Assembly: GCF_900104695.1 (NCBI RefSeq) | Contig: NZ_FNSW01000002.1 | Coordinates: 124,001-188,000 of the forward strand | Direction: 5' to 3' | DNA: 64,000 nucleotides | From: Paenibacillus sp. GP183 | Lineage (GTDB): Bacteria > Bacillota > Bacilli > Paenibacillales > NBRC-103111 | Shown here: positions 5,012 to 47,974 of the stretch, one piece after another | How positions within the stretch are numbered: the first letter of the stretch is position 1 | How the letters are laid out: each line of letters begins with the position of its first letter | Notes under the pieces: model-generated | Database searches by the model: none | Told to the model about the DNA's origin: nothing | What the model saw: only the letters and a program-made list of their open reading frames with translations | Program-made: the position numbers and the translations under genes

Positions 5012-5180
5012 GTGACATGCTCCCATGCCTAAAGGCAGGGGCTTCTCAGATCATCGGGGATCGTAACCTTTCCCCTCCTTGGAGGCTCTATCCAAGCCTA
5101 GTCTTTTTTAGGTTACGATACGTTTTTCAAAGCTAGGTTTAGTATGTTAATCGCCGCATTTACGTCCCGATCTGCAACAT
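5012..5180 (-). ncRNA. Probable omega RNA (reRNA) of IS605 copy 1
   Basis: By family knowledge the guide RNA covers the last part of tnpB and the 3' end of the element and runs into the flank. This tract contains two GC hairpins (around GGCTCTATCCAAGCC and GCCTTTAGGC). The 5' limit is an estimate. The guide would be the adjacent flank, beginning ATGGGGAAATTAGAAC. Confidence 0.55.
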
Positions 5181-6198
5181 ATCCGCAAGAACATTGATGC
5201 GTTCGTTCGGATAGTGTTTTTTTGACGATTTCACCACAGTTGGAGCATTGTTGAGATGTGTTGTATGGATTCACTTGCACGACTTGACGACCGGCACTTT
5301 CAGCCTTGTACATCACGAATTGTACGAGTTGCTGCCATCCTGCATCAACAATGCTTTTTGCAAGATGATGGTTCTTAACCAACCCTAATACGTTTAAATC
5401 TTCAAAAGCAATCAATTGGTACTGGTTTACGAGTTTACGAGAAACTTTGTGCGCATGATCTTTTCGCTGATTGGCTACATGCTCATGCAATTTCGCCAAT
5501 TGATGTACAGCTTTGCTTCTACGTTTCGAACCTTTTTTCTTTTTGGATACGGCACGTTGTAGATGTTTCAATCGTTGTTCACTTAGACGAAGATATTTGG
5601 GTGATTCTATCGGTTCTCCTTCAGATGGTATTGCAAGGTGTTTGAGTCCTAAGTCTATACCAACCTTCATGTTTGTTATAGGCAAAGGTTTGGCTTCAAC
5701 TTCACACGAAAAACAAGCATAGTATTTTCCGTTTTTGACAAGGATGGAACAGGTTTTCATCTTGCCTTGCAGTTCTCGATGTAGTTTTATTTTCACTTCA
5801 CCGATCTTGGATAGCTTTATTTTATTGCCATGGATTGTGTACCCGCCTTGCGGATAGGTAAACGAATCGTACCTTGATTGTGGTTTGAAACGTGGGAACC
5901 CTGGAGTCTCGGCTTGCTTCACTCGTCTAAAAAATGCTTGATACGCCTTATCCAATCGTTTCGCAACATCCTGTAACACTTGCGAATGCACTTGCTTTAA
6001 TGCCGGAATGTGTTGTTTACGCTCGTTGAACGTGTTTGCTTGATCGTAGTAGTTCGGTGTTTTCCCTTCTTGTTTGTAGGCAAGAATACGTTCCTCTAGT
6101 AACCGGTTATACAACAAACGGCAGCGTTCAAGAGTAAATTGTATCTGCTGTTTTTGCTCTTTTGTTGGGTATATTCGGTATTTGTAGGCAACAAGCAA
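5113..6198 (-). CDS. tnpB: TnpB, RNA-guided nuclease of IS605 copy 1
   Basis: 361 aa. N-terminal OrfB helix-turn-helix region, then RuvC-like motifs: GIDLGLKHLAI (Asp, about residue 180), FEDLNV (Glu, about 265) and DRDVNAAINIL (Asp, about 343), with a CSNCG...CSCG zinc ribbon between the last two. TnpB cuts DNA next to the target-adjacent motif using an omega RNA from the element's 3' end, which helps the element persist after excision. It starts 2 bases after the tnpA stop. All catalytic residues are present. Confidence 0.95.
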   Translation of the reverse strand: MLVAYKYRIYPTKEQKQQIQFTLERCRLLYNRLLEERILAYKQEGKTPNYYDQANTFNERKQHIPALKQVHSQVLQDVAKRLDKAYQAFFRRVKQAETPGFPRFKPQSRYDSFTYPQGGYTIHGNKIKLSKIGEVKIKLHRELQGKMKTCSILVKNGKYYACFSCEVEAKPLPITNMKVGIDLGLKHLAIPSEGEPIESPKYLRLSEQRLKHLQRAVSKKKKGSKRRSKAVHQLAKLHEHVANQRKDHAHKVSRKLVNQYQLIAFEDLNVLGLVKNHHLAKSIVDAGWQQLVQFVMYKAESAGRQVVQVNPYNTSQQCSNCGEIVKKTLSERTHQCSCGYVADRDVNAAINILNLALKNVS

Positions 6199-22261: not shown

Positions 22262-22318
22262 GGTACTCAATCCTTTCGGTTAGATGAGTCCATCGTATCT
22301 GAATTCAGCGCTCCCTTC

Positions 22319-22334
22319 TGTAATGTAACTTACA
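22319..22334. promoter_or_regulatory. Second Crp/Fnr-type operator
   Basis: TGTAATGTAACTTACA; same half-sites TGTAA and TTACA as the palindrome at 21499, located 58 bp upstream of the thioredoxin pseudogene start. Confidence 0.6.
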
Positions 22335-22399
22335 ATGGTTTTCCTGGGTTTATTTTTATTTGCCCTTTTTTAAGATTTCGAGCTATTAATTTTGAAAAA

Positions 22400-23296
22400 C
22401 TAATTGCCGGGCAGTTGGATGCCGCGCCAGCCGCTTACATCGCATTGGCCATATTCATTATCACCCACAGCAACCACCGTGCCGTCCGATTTAAGGCCGA
22501 GAGTATGAGCGCAACCCGCCGCAACCGCCACAATATCGCGCCAGCCACTTACATTGCATTGGCCATGCTCATTCCAACCCACAGCCGCCACAGCACCGTC
22601 CGATTTAAGGCCGATGGTATGATTACTACCCGCCGCTATCGCCACAATACCGCGCCAGCCGCTTACATCGCATTGGTCATGCTTATTCCAACCCACAGCC
22701 GCCACCGTACCGTCCGATTTAAGACCGATTGTATGAAGATAACCCGCCGCGACCGCCACAATATCGCACCAGCCGCTTACATTGCATTGGCGATACCGAT
22801 TATTACCCACAGCCGTCACCGTGCCGTCCAATTTAAGACCGATGGTATGCCAGTCACCCGCCGCGACCGCCACAATATCATGCCAGCCGCTTACATTGCA
22901 TTCACCTTCATTATTTCGGCCCACTGCTACCACCGTGCCATCCGATTTAAGCCCAATGGTACGACGCCAACCCGCCGTAACCGCTACAATATCGCGCCAG
23001 TCGTTTACATCGCATTGGTCATGCTTATTCCAACCCACAGCCGCCACAGTACTGTCAGATTTAAGACCGATTGTATGAGCATTACCCGTGTTCGTCGCCA
23101 TATGAACATTACCAGCCGCGACCGCCACAATATCGCGCCAGCCGCTTACATCACATTGGCCATATTTATTATCACCCACAGCCGTCACCGTTCCGTCAGA
23201 TTTAAGCCCAACGGTATGACGACGACCCGCCGCTATGGTATCTTTAGGCCAGCGTTTCACCTTTAACGCCGCTTCTTTCGGAGAAATGTAATCCAT
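22400..23296 (-). CDS. RCC1-repeat protein
   Basis: 298 aa made almost entirely of seven RCC1-type repeats of about 40 residues, each with a core like HTIGLKSDGTVVAVG, N-x-x-GQC-x-V and GWRDIVAVAAG. This predicts a seven-bladed beta propeller. There is no signal peptide. In bacteria such propellers are poorly understood binding modules. The repeats are very similar at the DNA level too, so copy number may vary between strains. Start at ATG 23296 after AAGGAGGTAAG. Confidence 0.88.
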   Translation of the reverse strand: MDYISPKEAALKVKRWPKDTIAAGRRHTVGLKSDGTVTAVGDNKYGQCDVSGWRDIVAVAAGNVHMATNTGNAHTIGLKSDSTVAAVGWNKHDQCDVNDWRDIVAVTAGWRRTIGLKSDGTVVAVGRNNEGECNVSGWHDIVAVAAGDWHTIGLKLDGTVTAVGNNRYRQCNVSGWCDIVAVAAGYLHTIGLKSDGTVAAVGWNKHDQCDVSGWRGIVAIAAGSNHTIGLKSDGAVAAVGWNEHGQCNVSGWRDIVAVAAGCAHTLGLKSDGTVVAVGDNEYGQCDVSGWRGIQLPGN

Positions 23297-26297: not shown

Positions 26298-26320
26298 TTG
26301 AGCTATCGTTCTCCGTTAGC
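26298..26320 (-). repeat. B-type hairpin repeat
   Basis: Plus strand TTGAGCTATCGTTCTCCG then TTAGC; it marks the left edge of the duplicated antitoxin unit. Terminator stem AGCTGCCGCGGCAGCT lies at 26255-26270. Confidence 0.75.
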
Positions 26321-26676
26321 GTAACGAAGGGCTGCTGGATGCATCATAATCTCACCTTCATCAACCTAATCAGGCATCCGCATAAGTGCAACCCTCAGTA
26401 TGTTTTTGCCCTCTTCACTATTCAATAAATCGATAGGCTTGACGTTATCTAAAGCTGGTACCGATTTAAATAACCATGTTCTAGCATGATTCCTAAGTCT
26501 ATAGTTCAGTACAATCGCAATATCTTTCGGTACACTGATATCACCGAATTCGATTTCACTCTCAACAACACTTTTACTGCAATTGTCTACAAACTTGAGC
26601 CAATGATCTTCGTGATAGTCTTTTAAGAATACTTCAAATCCCATGACCATTCTCACCTCTTGTATCCGTTAGCTCA
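26316..26676. repeat. 361-bp duplicated cassette-like unit, copy 2
   Basis: Matches 639-999 with one base difference. Flanked by B site 26298-26320 and the site at 26663-26677. Beyond TTAGC on the left and GTTAGCTCA on the right the two loci are unrelated. Confidence 0.85.
26366..26650 (-). CDS. DUF2384 antitoxin-like protein, copy 2
   Basis: Same protein as at 0.69-0.97 kb except Phe for Ser in the segment FEVFLKDYHEDHW. The toxin-binding signature PALDNVKPIDLLNSEEGK is intact. No RES-type toxin gene is adjacent. Start choices as for copy 1 (ATG 26650 or 26644, GTG 26656). Confidence 0.75.
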   Translation of the reverse strand: MVMGFEVFLKDYHEDHWLKFVDNCSKSVVESEIEFGDISVPKDIAIVLNYRLRNHARTWLFKSVPALDNVKPIDLLNSEEGKNILRVALMRMPD

Positions 26677-36215: not shown

Positions 36216-36450
36216 GTTACCACTCCTCTATTATTAATATGCCGCTATATCTAGTATCATATCGAAGTTCCCTAAAGCTGAAAAGTACTGAAATATTAGT
36301 TAGATAGTTATATATAGTAAAGTTACCTAAAGTAGGGTAAGCCGACAAATTGACATATATAAAATGTTCACATATCATAACAATAATAATTGAATAGAAA
36401 AAAGTTCGTATAACCTCAAAAATTGGTTTGGGGGCTCTACTAGGGACCGA

Positions 36451-36509
36451 AAAAACCCTAACTACGAACGCAATATTTTCTTCGTATTGCGTTCGTAGTT
36501 AGGGTTTTT
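36451..36509. terminator. 25-bp perfect inverted repeat
   Basis: AAAAACCCTAACTACGAACG continues to a perfect 25-bp stem with a 9-base loop, T-runs on both strands. Much longer than needed for a terminator; lies before an amidohydrolase fragment. Confidence 0.75.
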
Positions 36510-46825: not shown

Positions 46826-47296
46826 TTAGGATAAGTATAGCATAATAAGCTCTTCAGCAACAGATTCAGATATGATCATGTGTCCGCCGCCAATATGCTG
46901 AGCATGTATATCACGTATGTAATAAGCAAGAAGTCTCGGCCTGGTCTTCGAACGGAAGGCTACAAGTCCATCATAGCCAATATCCATGCTCCGCTTACAA
47001 GCAAATGCTACCAGATGTTCGCCGATAAGATCAAACTCCTTATCGTAGCGATTATTAGGAGCGCTCTCTATAAGATGTATATACACATGATCCTCTTTAC
47101 GCTCCAAGGCAATAGCCCCTTGAATCACATCATTTCCTGTAATCAGCATCTTATACACTTCAACGCCAGGCTGGCCGAAATAAACTGTCCAATCGAATGC
47201 TTCATCCCAGTTATGTATCTGTTGTTTAACATCATATGGCTGAAGCGATAAGAATGAGACAGGATAAAGCTCATGACTTTTCACATGTAAGAGCAA
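46826..47296 (-). CDS. Hypothetical protein, possibly GNAT-like
   Basis: 156 aa. Starts TTG 47296 after GAGGAGG (8 bases). Segments VIQGAIALERKEDHVYIHLI and GEHLVAFACKRSMDIGYDGL are compatible with an acetyltransferase-like fold (strand 4-5 and helix), but the pyrophosphate loop is absent, so the assignment is tentative. The following 57-aa gene starts 14 bp after its stop. Confidence 0.65.
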   Translation of the reverse strand: MLLHVKSHELYPVSFLSLQPYDVKQQIHNWDEAFDWTVYFGQPGVEVYKMLITGNDVIQGAIALERKEDHVYIHLIESAPNNRYDKEFDLIGEHLVAFACKRSMDIGYDGLVAFRSKTRPRLLAYYIRDIHAQHIGGGHMIISESVAEELIMLYLS

Positions 47297-47376: not shown

Positions 47377-47974
47377 CTAAGTATTCATTTCTTTATAAGG
47401 TGTACATTCATGCAGTGACATGCTCCCATGCCTAAAGGCAGGGGCTTCTCAGATCATCGGGGATCGTAACCTTTCCCCTCCTTGGAGGCTCTATCCAAGC
47501 CTAGTCTTTTTTAGGTTACGATACGTTTTTCAAAGCTAGGTTTAGTATGTTAATCGCCGCATTTACCCGATCTGCAGCATATCCGCAAGAACATTGATGC
47601 GTTCGTTCGGATAGTGTTTTTTTGACGATTTCACCACAGTTGGAGCATTGTTGAGATACAGTAAATTGTACCACAAATAGTTATTTTAATGTAGTTTATC
47701 TAACATGTTTTAAAGAGAGAATTTAAGAATTTTGCTCTTAACATCCCTAAAGGGATGCAGAGCAAATTGCCTTATATCCCCATGGCTAAAGCAAGGGGTT
47801 TTACGGCGAATTTGATAAAGAAAATCTCCTGGCTGTAGTTTCCTCTTGCTTGTCCCCTGCATACCCTGCTTCGCTACACCTAACCCGAACCATCTTTTGT
47901 ACCTCGGAAAAGTAGTCCTGAATGGCTTCCTTCAGTTCTCGATCATATTCTAACAATTTCATTTGAACGAACAT
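47377..47974 (-). pseudogene. 65-aa protein interrupted by IS605 derivative
   Basis: ATG 47974 after AGGAGGATCC, MFVQMKLLEYDRELKEAIQD, coiled-coil-like; at 47818 the IS605 derivative enters. Across the insertion the frame is restored exactly (RRFSL-LHECTPYKEMNT, ending at 47377). With the insertion, translation stops at 47801 (57 aa). Function unknown. Confidence 0.6.
47415..47814 (-). mobile_element. IS605 internal-deletion derivative (MITE-like), keeps 3' end
   Basis: 400 bp. Both ends match the full-length copies, but tnpA and most of tnpB are gone (joined at about 47655). The last about 230 bp, covering the tnpB 3' end and the probable omega RNA, are kept. Coding-strand flank TTTAT at the 5' side; expected guide TGCATGAATGTACACCTT. 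It could be mobilised by TnpA from full copies and guide their TnpB. Confidence 0.88.

Follow-up and report, generated by a model that had tools for sequence, protein, structure and literature searches.

A 400-bp IS200/IS605 derivative in Paenibacillus sp. GP183 that keeps both ends and a whole omega RNA scaffold, with a putative guide function in trans

Background

Can a transposon derivative that has lost its transposase gene and most of its nuclease gene still supply a guide RNA to the nucleases of its siblings? The question is raised by a 400-bp element in the 64,000-nucleotide stretch of DNA analysed here (the window), which corresponds to bases 124001-188000 of replicon C2 of Paenibacillus sp. 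GP183. The genome comprises 5.83 Mb in three contigs, and C2, with 398,744 bp, appears to be plasmid-like, judging from its size and from a relative of the gene flanking the element, which lies beside trfA on a P. sonchi plasmid. Elsewhere in the window are about seven tandem copies of a 114-bp repeat (22309-23233), which overlap long open reading frames on both strands, and a 300-bp direct repeat (639-938 and 26316-26615, 100% identical). Statements about published systems hold for the portions of each cited paper that were available.

Results

Structure of the element and its copies

The boundaries of the element are exact: its left end starts at 47814 and its right end (...ATGTCAC) stops at 47415. 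Counted from the TTAT, nucleotides 1-162 of the derivative equal those of E1, a full copy of 1,762 bp in the window, except for one C-to-A change; 1,359 bp are then missing, after which the match resumes and runs to the right end. In BLAST comparisons with the full copies, the left part (nucleotides 1-162) reaches at most 99% identity (E 4.8e-78) and about 245 nt on the right match at 98% (lowest E 2.7e-119), both far beyond chance. A single 1,359-bp deletion took out tnpA and most of tnpB, and brought the left end and its promoter-like site next to the final 142 nt of tnpB and the right end (Table 1). Further private changes of the derivative are one T-to-C substitution and a 3-nt deletion in the tnpB tail. 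The original prediction, of an IS605 derivative without tnpA and most of tnpB that keeps its ends, is therefore borne out: only nucleotides 942-1086 of tnpB, less 3 nt, are left, and both parts match full copies up to exact boundaries. Terminal hairpins were predicted at both ends and fold weakly better than shuffles (z -1.21 at the left end and -0.87 at the right). Lacking a transposase gene and retaining both IS605-type ends, the derivative has the make-up of a PATE (palindrome-associated element); full-length TnpA, which would be needed to mobilise it in trans, is encoded elsewhere in the genome. Stretches of 40-50 nt resembling the left end also occur in plasmids and phages of other phyla.

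Table 1. Positions of the 400-bp derivative, its parts and possible protein partners in the window
Feature	Position	Strand	Remarks
Internal-deletion derivative (400 bp) of a 1,762-bp IS200/IS605 element	47415..47814	-	alignment and genome-wide copies
TTAT at left boundary; insertion site and presumed target-adjacent motif	47815..47818	-	precedes the left end in 14/14 copies
Left end with imperfect terminal palindrome	47765..47814	-	folded as single-stranded DNA; common to the full copies of the window
TTGTGGTACAAT, promoter-like site of extended -10 type, taken over from the region preceding tnpA	47665..47676	-	present in full copies
Junction of the 1,359-bp internal deletion	47656..47657	-	no more than 1 nt common to both sides
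Tail of tnpB, nt 942-1086 of 1086 less 3 nt	47516..47657	-	
152 nt containing the presumed omega RNA scaffold	47415..47566	-	identical to 10/12 full copies
Structurally conserved omega RNA core: GGAU-loop hairpin, two nested stems, terminal hairpin; 3' end GUCAC	47415..47502	-	
Guide-encoding flank TGCATGAATGTACACC	47399..47414	-	
Intact TnpB, 361 aa, possible partner in trans	5113..6198	-	
Intact TnpB, 361 aa	9597..10682	-	
Intact TnpB, 361 aa	42153..43238	-	
Intact TnpB, 361 aa	53088..54173	+	in copy with frameshifted tnpA
Full-length Y1 transposase TnpA, 137 aa	6201..6614	-	
Full-length TnpA, 137 aa	10685..11098	-	
TnpA, 135 aa	43241..43648	-	6-nt in-frame deletion

A search of the whole genome found 12 full-length copies, the 400-bp derivative and a remnant that lacks a right end (C2:302055-302370). 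All 14 left ends are preceded by TTAT, which agrees with the flanking motif originally predicted, and the right flanks of the 13 elements that possess a right end all differ, with no TTAT repeat at the junction. Such insertion 3' to a fixed short motif, with no target duplication, agrees with an IS200/IS605 parent, and TTAT is presumably also the target-adjacent motif (TAM). A MITE needs the same short form at several sites, whereas the genome search gave a single copy of this deletion form, the remnant having arisen by a different deletion; a MITE family in this genome is therefore rejected, and the MITE label of the original prediction is unproven. Deletion in place is as possible as movement of the short form, and with one copy only there is no sign that the derivative ever moved or benefited.

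All 12 full copies encode an intact TnpB of 361 aa, free of indels and stops, and four of these proteins are encoded in the window, in accord with the three or four that had been predicted nearby; a guide acting in trans, as was also proposed, is therefore possible. All four window copies match PF01385, PF07282 and PF12323 above cut-off, and so carry the OrfB and TNB domains, and the catalytic motifs of TnpB look intact by eye in the translation. Among solved structures, the 408-aa TnpB of entries 8bf8 and 8h1j (E 1.5e-64), which we take to be ISDra2 TnpB, ranked second to an AI-designed nuclease. In the set of 42 named loci with a TnpB relative, the best eight all belong to Paenibacillus, as do 14 of the 42 overall. 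TnpA is a Y1 transposase (PF01797, E 1.3e-42) with a full-length reading frame (135-137 aa) in 7/12 full copies; it is disrupted in the other five, four being frameshifted and one split by an insertion, and another copy has a 6-nt in-frame deletion. All 15 Y1 transposase matches of this genome fall inside these copies. Across the 12 full copies (L028-L041), tnpB seems to be kept longer than tnpA.

Omega RNA scaffold

In its last 152 nt the derivative is identical to 10 of the 12 full copies and departs from each of the remaining two by a single difference, so that the omega RNA part has been retained as predicted. A deletion in the TnpB-binding scaffold, the weak point that the original prediction had named for itself, was not found; the 3-nt deletion falls just outside these 152 nt. 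For a structural comparison, 27 of the 42 loci were taken and their right ends cut at [T/G]TCAC, one of them (L076) being dropped for want of such an end. The alignment combined 17 of the remaining 26 with the derivative and E1, giving 19 sequences (18 distinct); the nine left out were more distant, near-copies or carriers of longer inserts. Its consensus structure has 21 pairs, 16 of which are changed on both sides. Paired cells amount to 95.0%, compared with 73.1% in shuffles and at most 44.8% when the structure is slid, and none of 500 shuffles reached any of five measures, figures to be read with the structure having been derived from the alignment on which it was tested and the shuffles leaving relatedness in place. 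Single-sequence folds are moderately better than shuffles (z -1.6 and -1.8). The derivative thus has the conserved scaffold of a TnpB omega RNA, with a structure supported by covariation. Scored with the covariance model, among whose 19 rows it is itself included, the derivative reaches 86.6 bits, as do 11 full copies; the remaining full copy reaches 84.8.

The loop base of the GGA(A/C/U) hairpin matches the base five from the 3' end (U/G, followed by UC) in 25 of 25 recognised hairpins (A-U in 17, C-G in seven and U-G in one); the hairpin was unrecognised in two of the 27 rows, which include near-copies. Cutting the ends at T or G confines the base five from the 3' end to two letters. A TnpB tree of 22 rows (E1 and 21 of the 24 relatives with the hairpin; the other three aligned over too short a stretch) requires two changes to account for the G state (bootstrap 2-3), and the support for this pairing therefore amounts to about two switches, not 25. 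An upstream loop thus pairs with the scaffold's 3' end as in ISDra2, in whose omega RNA positions -5 to -3 contact -105 to -103 and whose 116-nt scaffold suffices (PMC10097598); the scaffold of AmaTnpB is given as 106 nt (PMC10278001).

In an Rfam search of the window, a purine riboswitch (RF00167, 60.7 bits, 36386-36484, + strand) was the only match. Eight tnpB-less and related loci, searched at E <= 0.1, gave nothing above the gathering score on the elements; a SNORD15 match over the L191 element (29.8 bits, the gathering score being 75) is below threshold and was taken as chance.

Promoter-like site, predicted transcript and guide

Besides the scaffold, the derivative keeps the promoter-like site from in front of tnpA, which the original prediction had not mentioned. 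By eye, six relatives show TGTGGTAT..T (four) or T(A/G)TGATATAAT (two) at the matching place before tnpB. A strict sigma-70 scan reported no promoter. Transcription starts about 6-8 nt downstream of a -10 site; such a start would fall on the deletion junction and yield an RNA of about 245 nt plus flank. With ends, promoter-like site and whole scaffold kept, the transcript would therefore be little more than an omega RNA running into the flank.

The sequence supports the original proposal of a putative guide in the element's own flank, and this guide, TGCATGAATGTACACC, differs from the guides of all 12 full copies. The further description of the element as a natural single-guide unit is a claim about function, and a putative one. 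The genome search for targets next to TTAT that had been suggested gave no match with three or fewer mismatches; the only match of the guide within three mismatches is the flank of the element itself, which bears TCAC instead of TTAT. Viral contigs held no exact guide match. A 14-base form of the guide has four matches with up to two mismatches in the window, its own flank included (shuffles gave a mean of 1.4, and two of 100 had as many). In the sequences searched, the only target to be expected is therefore the empty site of the derivative itself. The gene downstream of the element has DNA relatives in six of 102 other genomes of the family (two being short, weak matches) and on the P. sonchi plasmid, and no empty site could be read in any of these, because the similarity stops at about the gene start or before.

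Omega RNAs in related genomes

With the omega RNA model, a search of the family at E <= 1e-3 yielded 36 loci outside this genome, in 20 of 102 other genomes, and an order-wide search of 392 genomes at E <= 1e-8 added at least ten loci in eight genomes, a lower bound since fewer candidates were scored per genome. Forty-three of the 46 loci were assessed, the other three lying at contig starts. A full tnpB, taken as a TnpB match covering 355 or more of the 361 residues, lies directly upstream in 23 of the 43, 18 of these having a reading frame of at least 360 codons and five being counted by match only, with frames unchecked. The other 20 are omega RNAs without a full tnpB, 14 of which score at least 59.9 bits. 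Among these, at L168 the start of tnpB is fused to the scaffold, at L174 a left-end-like stretch is fused to it, and at L176 a TnpA match is present with tnpB deleted. Three more of them, elements of 306-336 nt, are bounded by TTTAT and GTCAC and have different flanks, their left boundaries being placed by the TTTAT. Two of them, 89% alike, are in genome G078, and the third, in genome G069, is 74% alike to the query copy. The two sites in G078 show that a short form bearing an omega RNA has moved as a unit. G078 (84% complete) and G069 carry these intact omega-RNA-only elements and gave no TnpB match at E <= 1e-30 and no Y1 transposase match; G078 also contains a decayed piece of tnpB (L187). 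An intact scaffold is therefore no proof of use.

Several further features of these loci were observed. A palindrome, GAAC-N4-GTTC, lies in the promoter region of the tnpB-less elements L166 (G069), L167 and L171 (both G078) and L191 (G010, with a decayed scaffold of 36.8 bits), and the same kind of palindrome precedes tnpB in L162, L163, L164 and L175; these are eight of the 12 such sites in the 36 loci, the other four lying elsewhere. The palindrome resembles the LexA box of Gram-positive bacteria, and this likeness suggests that elements with it might be expressed upon damage. In L166, L167 and L171, about 110 nt without a tnpB match separate the palindrome from the scaffold and fold into further stems with a few paired changes (z -3.1 for L166 and -1.7 for L167); the stretch may extend the guide RNA on its 5' side. 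RNAalifold likewise suggested extra 5' stems in four omega-RNA-only elements, but its covariation term is near zero for four sequences and we make no claim for these stems. Genome G010 has, in addition to three full TnpB copies, three right-end fragments of about 204-328 nt (L165, L169 and L172) whose scaffolds score high and whose upstream DNA is unrelated.

Discussion

A guide function of the derivative is plausible, and its best explanation, in our view, is a PATE-type derivative of a multi-copy IS200/IS605 element whose omega RNA works in trans with TnpB from its siblings; we hold the chances that this is correct to be about even. The promoter-like site would give rise to the omega RNA of about 245 nt running into the flank, and TnpB encoded by any of the 12 intact siblings would associate with this RNA, shorten it from the 5' side and be loaded with its guide. 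In the sequences searched, TTAT followed by the guide sequence would be expected only at the donor site after excision, or on a replicon copy without the element. A cut at such an empty site, repaired from the occupied copy, would restore the element, and the derivative would in this way profit from TnpB-mediated retention although it does not encode the protein. By analogy with systems studied experimentally, loading in trans is realistic: TnpB and reRNA supplied from separate plasmids form an active complex (PMC8612924), and AmaTnpB trims the 5' side, not the 3' side, of separately supplied RNA (PMC10278001). TnpB is also described as driving an insertion sequence through plasmid populations, the cutting of empty sites favouring occupied copies (PMC11870625).

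The strongest alternative is an inert deletion product: the full copy at this site would have lost its core by end joining so recently that there was too little time for decay. We regard this as a serious possibility, although we lean somewhat against it. Outside the deletion, the derivative differs from E1 by two substitutions and 3 nt, so few differences that the intact scaffold may just reflect youth, and it is present as a single copy. In the second derivative of the genome the right end is missing entirely, relatives contain five omega RNA remnants with low scores (37-47 bits) and no full tnpB, and the intact scaffolds of G078 and G069 stand in genomes where no full-length partner was found. 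Against inertness, neither the promoter-like site nor any part of the scaffold has been lost and 12 intact tnpB genes are present, so that a usable guide would be hard to avoid if the element is transcribed; moreover, short elements of this type have moved as units in relatives.

A role as decoy or competitor, in which the short omega RNA would sequester TnpB and reduce the cutting that serves the full copies, whether it parasitises the element in this way or benefits the host, appears improbable. The scaffold of the derivative is the same as that of the full copies, and a transcript without the body of tnpB would lack the region of AmaTnpB mRNA that inhibits cleavage (PMC10278001; its position is transferred by analogy only). 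However, one such locus faces 12 full copies. Still more improbable is a portable promoter, which would drive the same-strand open reading frame at 46826-47296 (start codon as listed by the tool), about 118 bp downstream of the element. Orientation, distance and the promoter-like site fit, and this frame has relatives in other genomes and on the P. sonchi plasmid, but a terminator-like hairpin on the same strand (47338-47322) lies between, and the strict scan gave no promoter. That TnpB and the guide regulate or cut some other cellular or phage locus is largely refuted and hardly credible, since nothing beyond the presence of guide and TnpB speaks for it, the searches gave neither a TTAT-flanked genome match within three mismatches nor an exact match in viral contigs, and the seemingly intact catalytic motifs are unlike those of a binding-only regulator.

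A more general and more doubtful proposition may be put forward, which we consider unlikely but worth stating: IS605 elements would repeatedly shed their genes while retaining a promoter joined to a complete omega RNA, thereby becoming non-autonomous, selfish guide RNAs that parasitise the selfish TnpB nucleases of relatives for guide-directed retention or gene drive. The derivative would be a young example, the 306-336-nt elements of G078 and G069 older cases that had spread as units. Were guides loaded in trans, the retention benefit of TnpB would be a public good open to non-coding elements, which would bear on the spread and decay of IS605 families and on why tnpB outlives tnpA. The system can be tested directly, with one strain, one distinct guide and a defined target (TTAT + TGCATGAATGTACACC).

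Comparison with known systems

Transposase-free IS605-type derivatives with near-terminal palindromes, some formed by core deletion, are known as the PATEs of Haloquadratum walsbyi (PMC3119063). Those PATEs, in contrast, are multi-copy families, one with 52-bp copies consisting of the termini only, and several of their deletions use direct repeats (PMC3119063), whereas the two sides of the junction here have no more than 1 nt in common. Closer still is the PATE-like element reported from Halanaerobium hydrogeniformans in 2020, about 271 nt comprising 28 nt of the left end, the last 58 nt of tnpB and the whole 160-nt right end (PMC7290912). Like the derivative it lacks tnpA, is present as a single copy and is made of the same parts, and its anatomy suggests that an omega RNA may be retained there, too. 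It differs in that its left end is much shorter, whereas the derivative keeps the promoter-like site of tnpA and coexists with 12 intact tnpB genes; the accessible part of that report holds no description of the element as a guide-RNA unit (PMC7290912). Since PATEs, one of them with the same parts, are already in print, the anatomy of the derivative is not new. Searches of the openly licensed literature gave no description of a tnpB-less element as guide donor, which is weak evidence, and the functional reading is possibly new.

As in ISDra2, the nuclease belongs to the TnpB family, the guide comes from the right flank and the 3' end of the scaffold pairs with an upstream GNA; the TAM of ISDra2, however, is TTGAT rather than the TTAT presumed here, and its omega RNA lies within a tnpB-bearing element (PMC8612924, PMC10097598). 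In the gene drive described for IS200/IS605 elements on plasmids, TnpB directed to the empty site favours occupied plasmids, and the derivative likewise resides on a plasmid-like replicon; the element there encodes its own TnpB, whereas here TnpB would come from other copies (PMC11870625).
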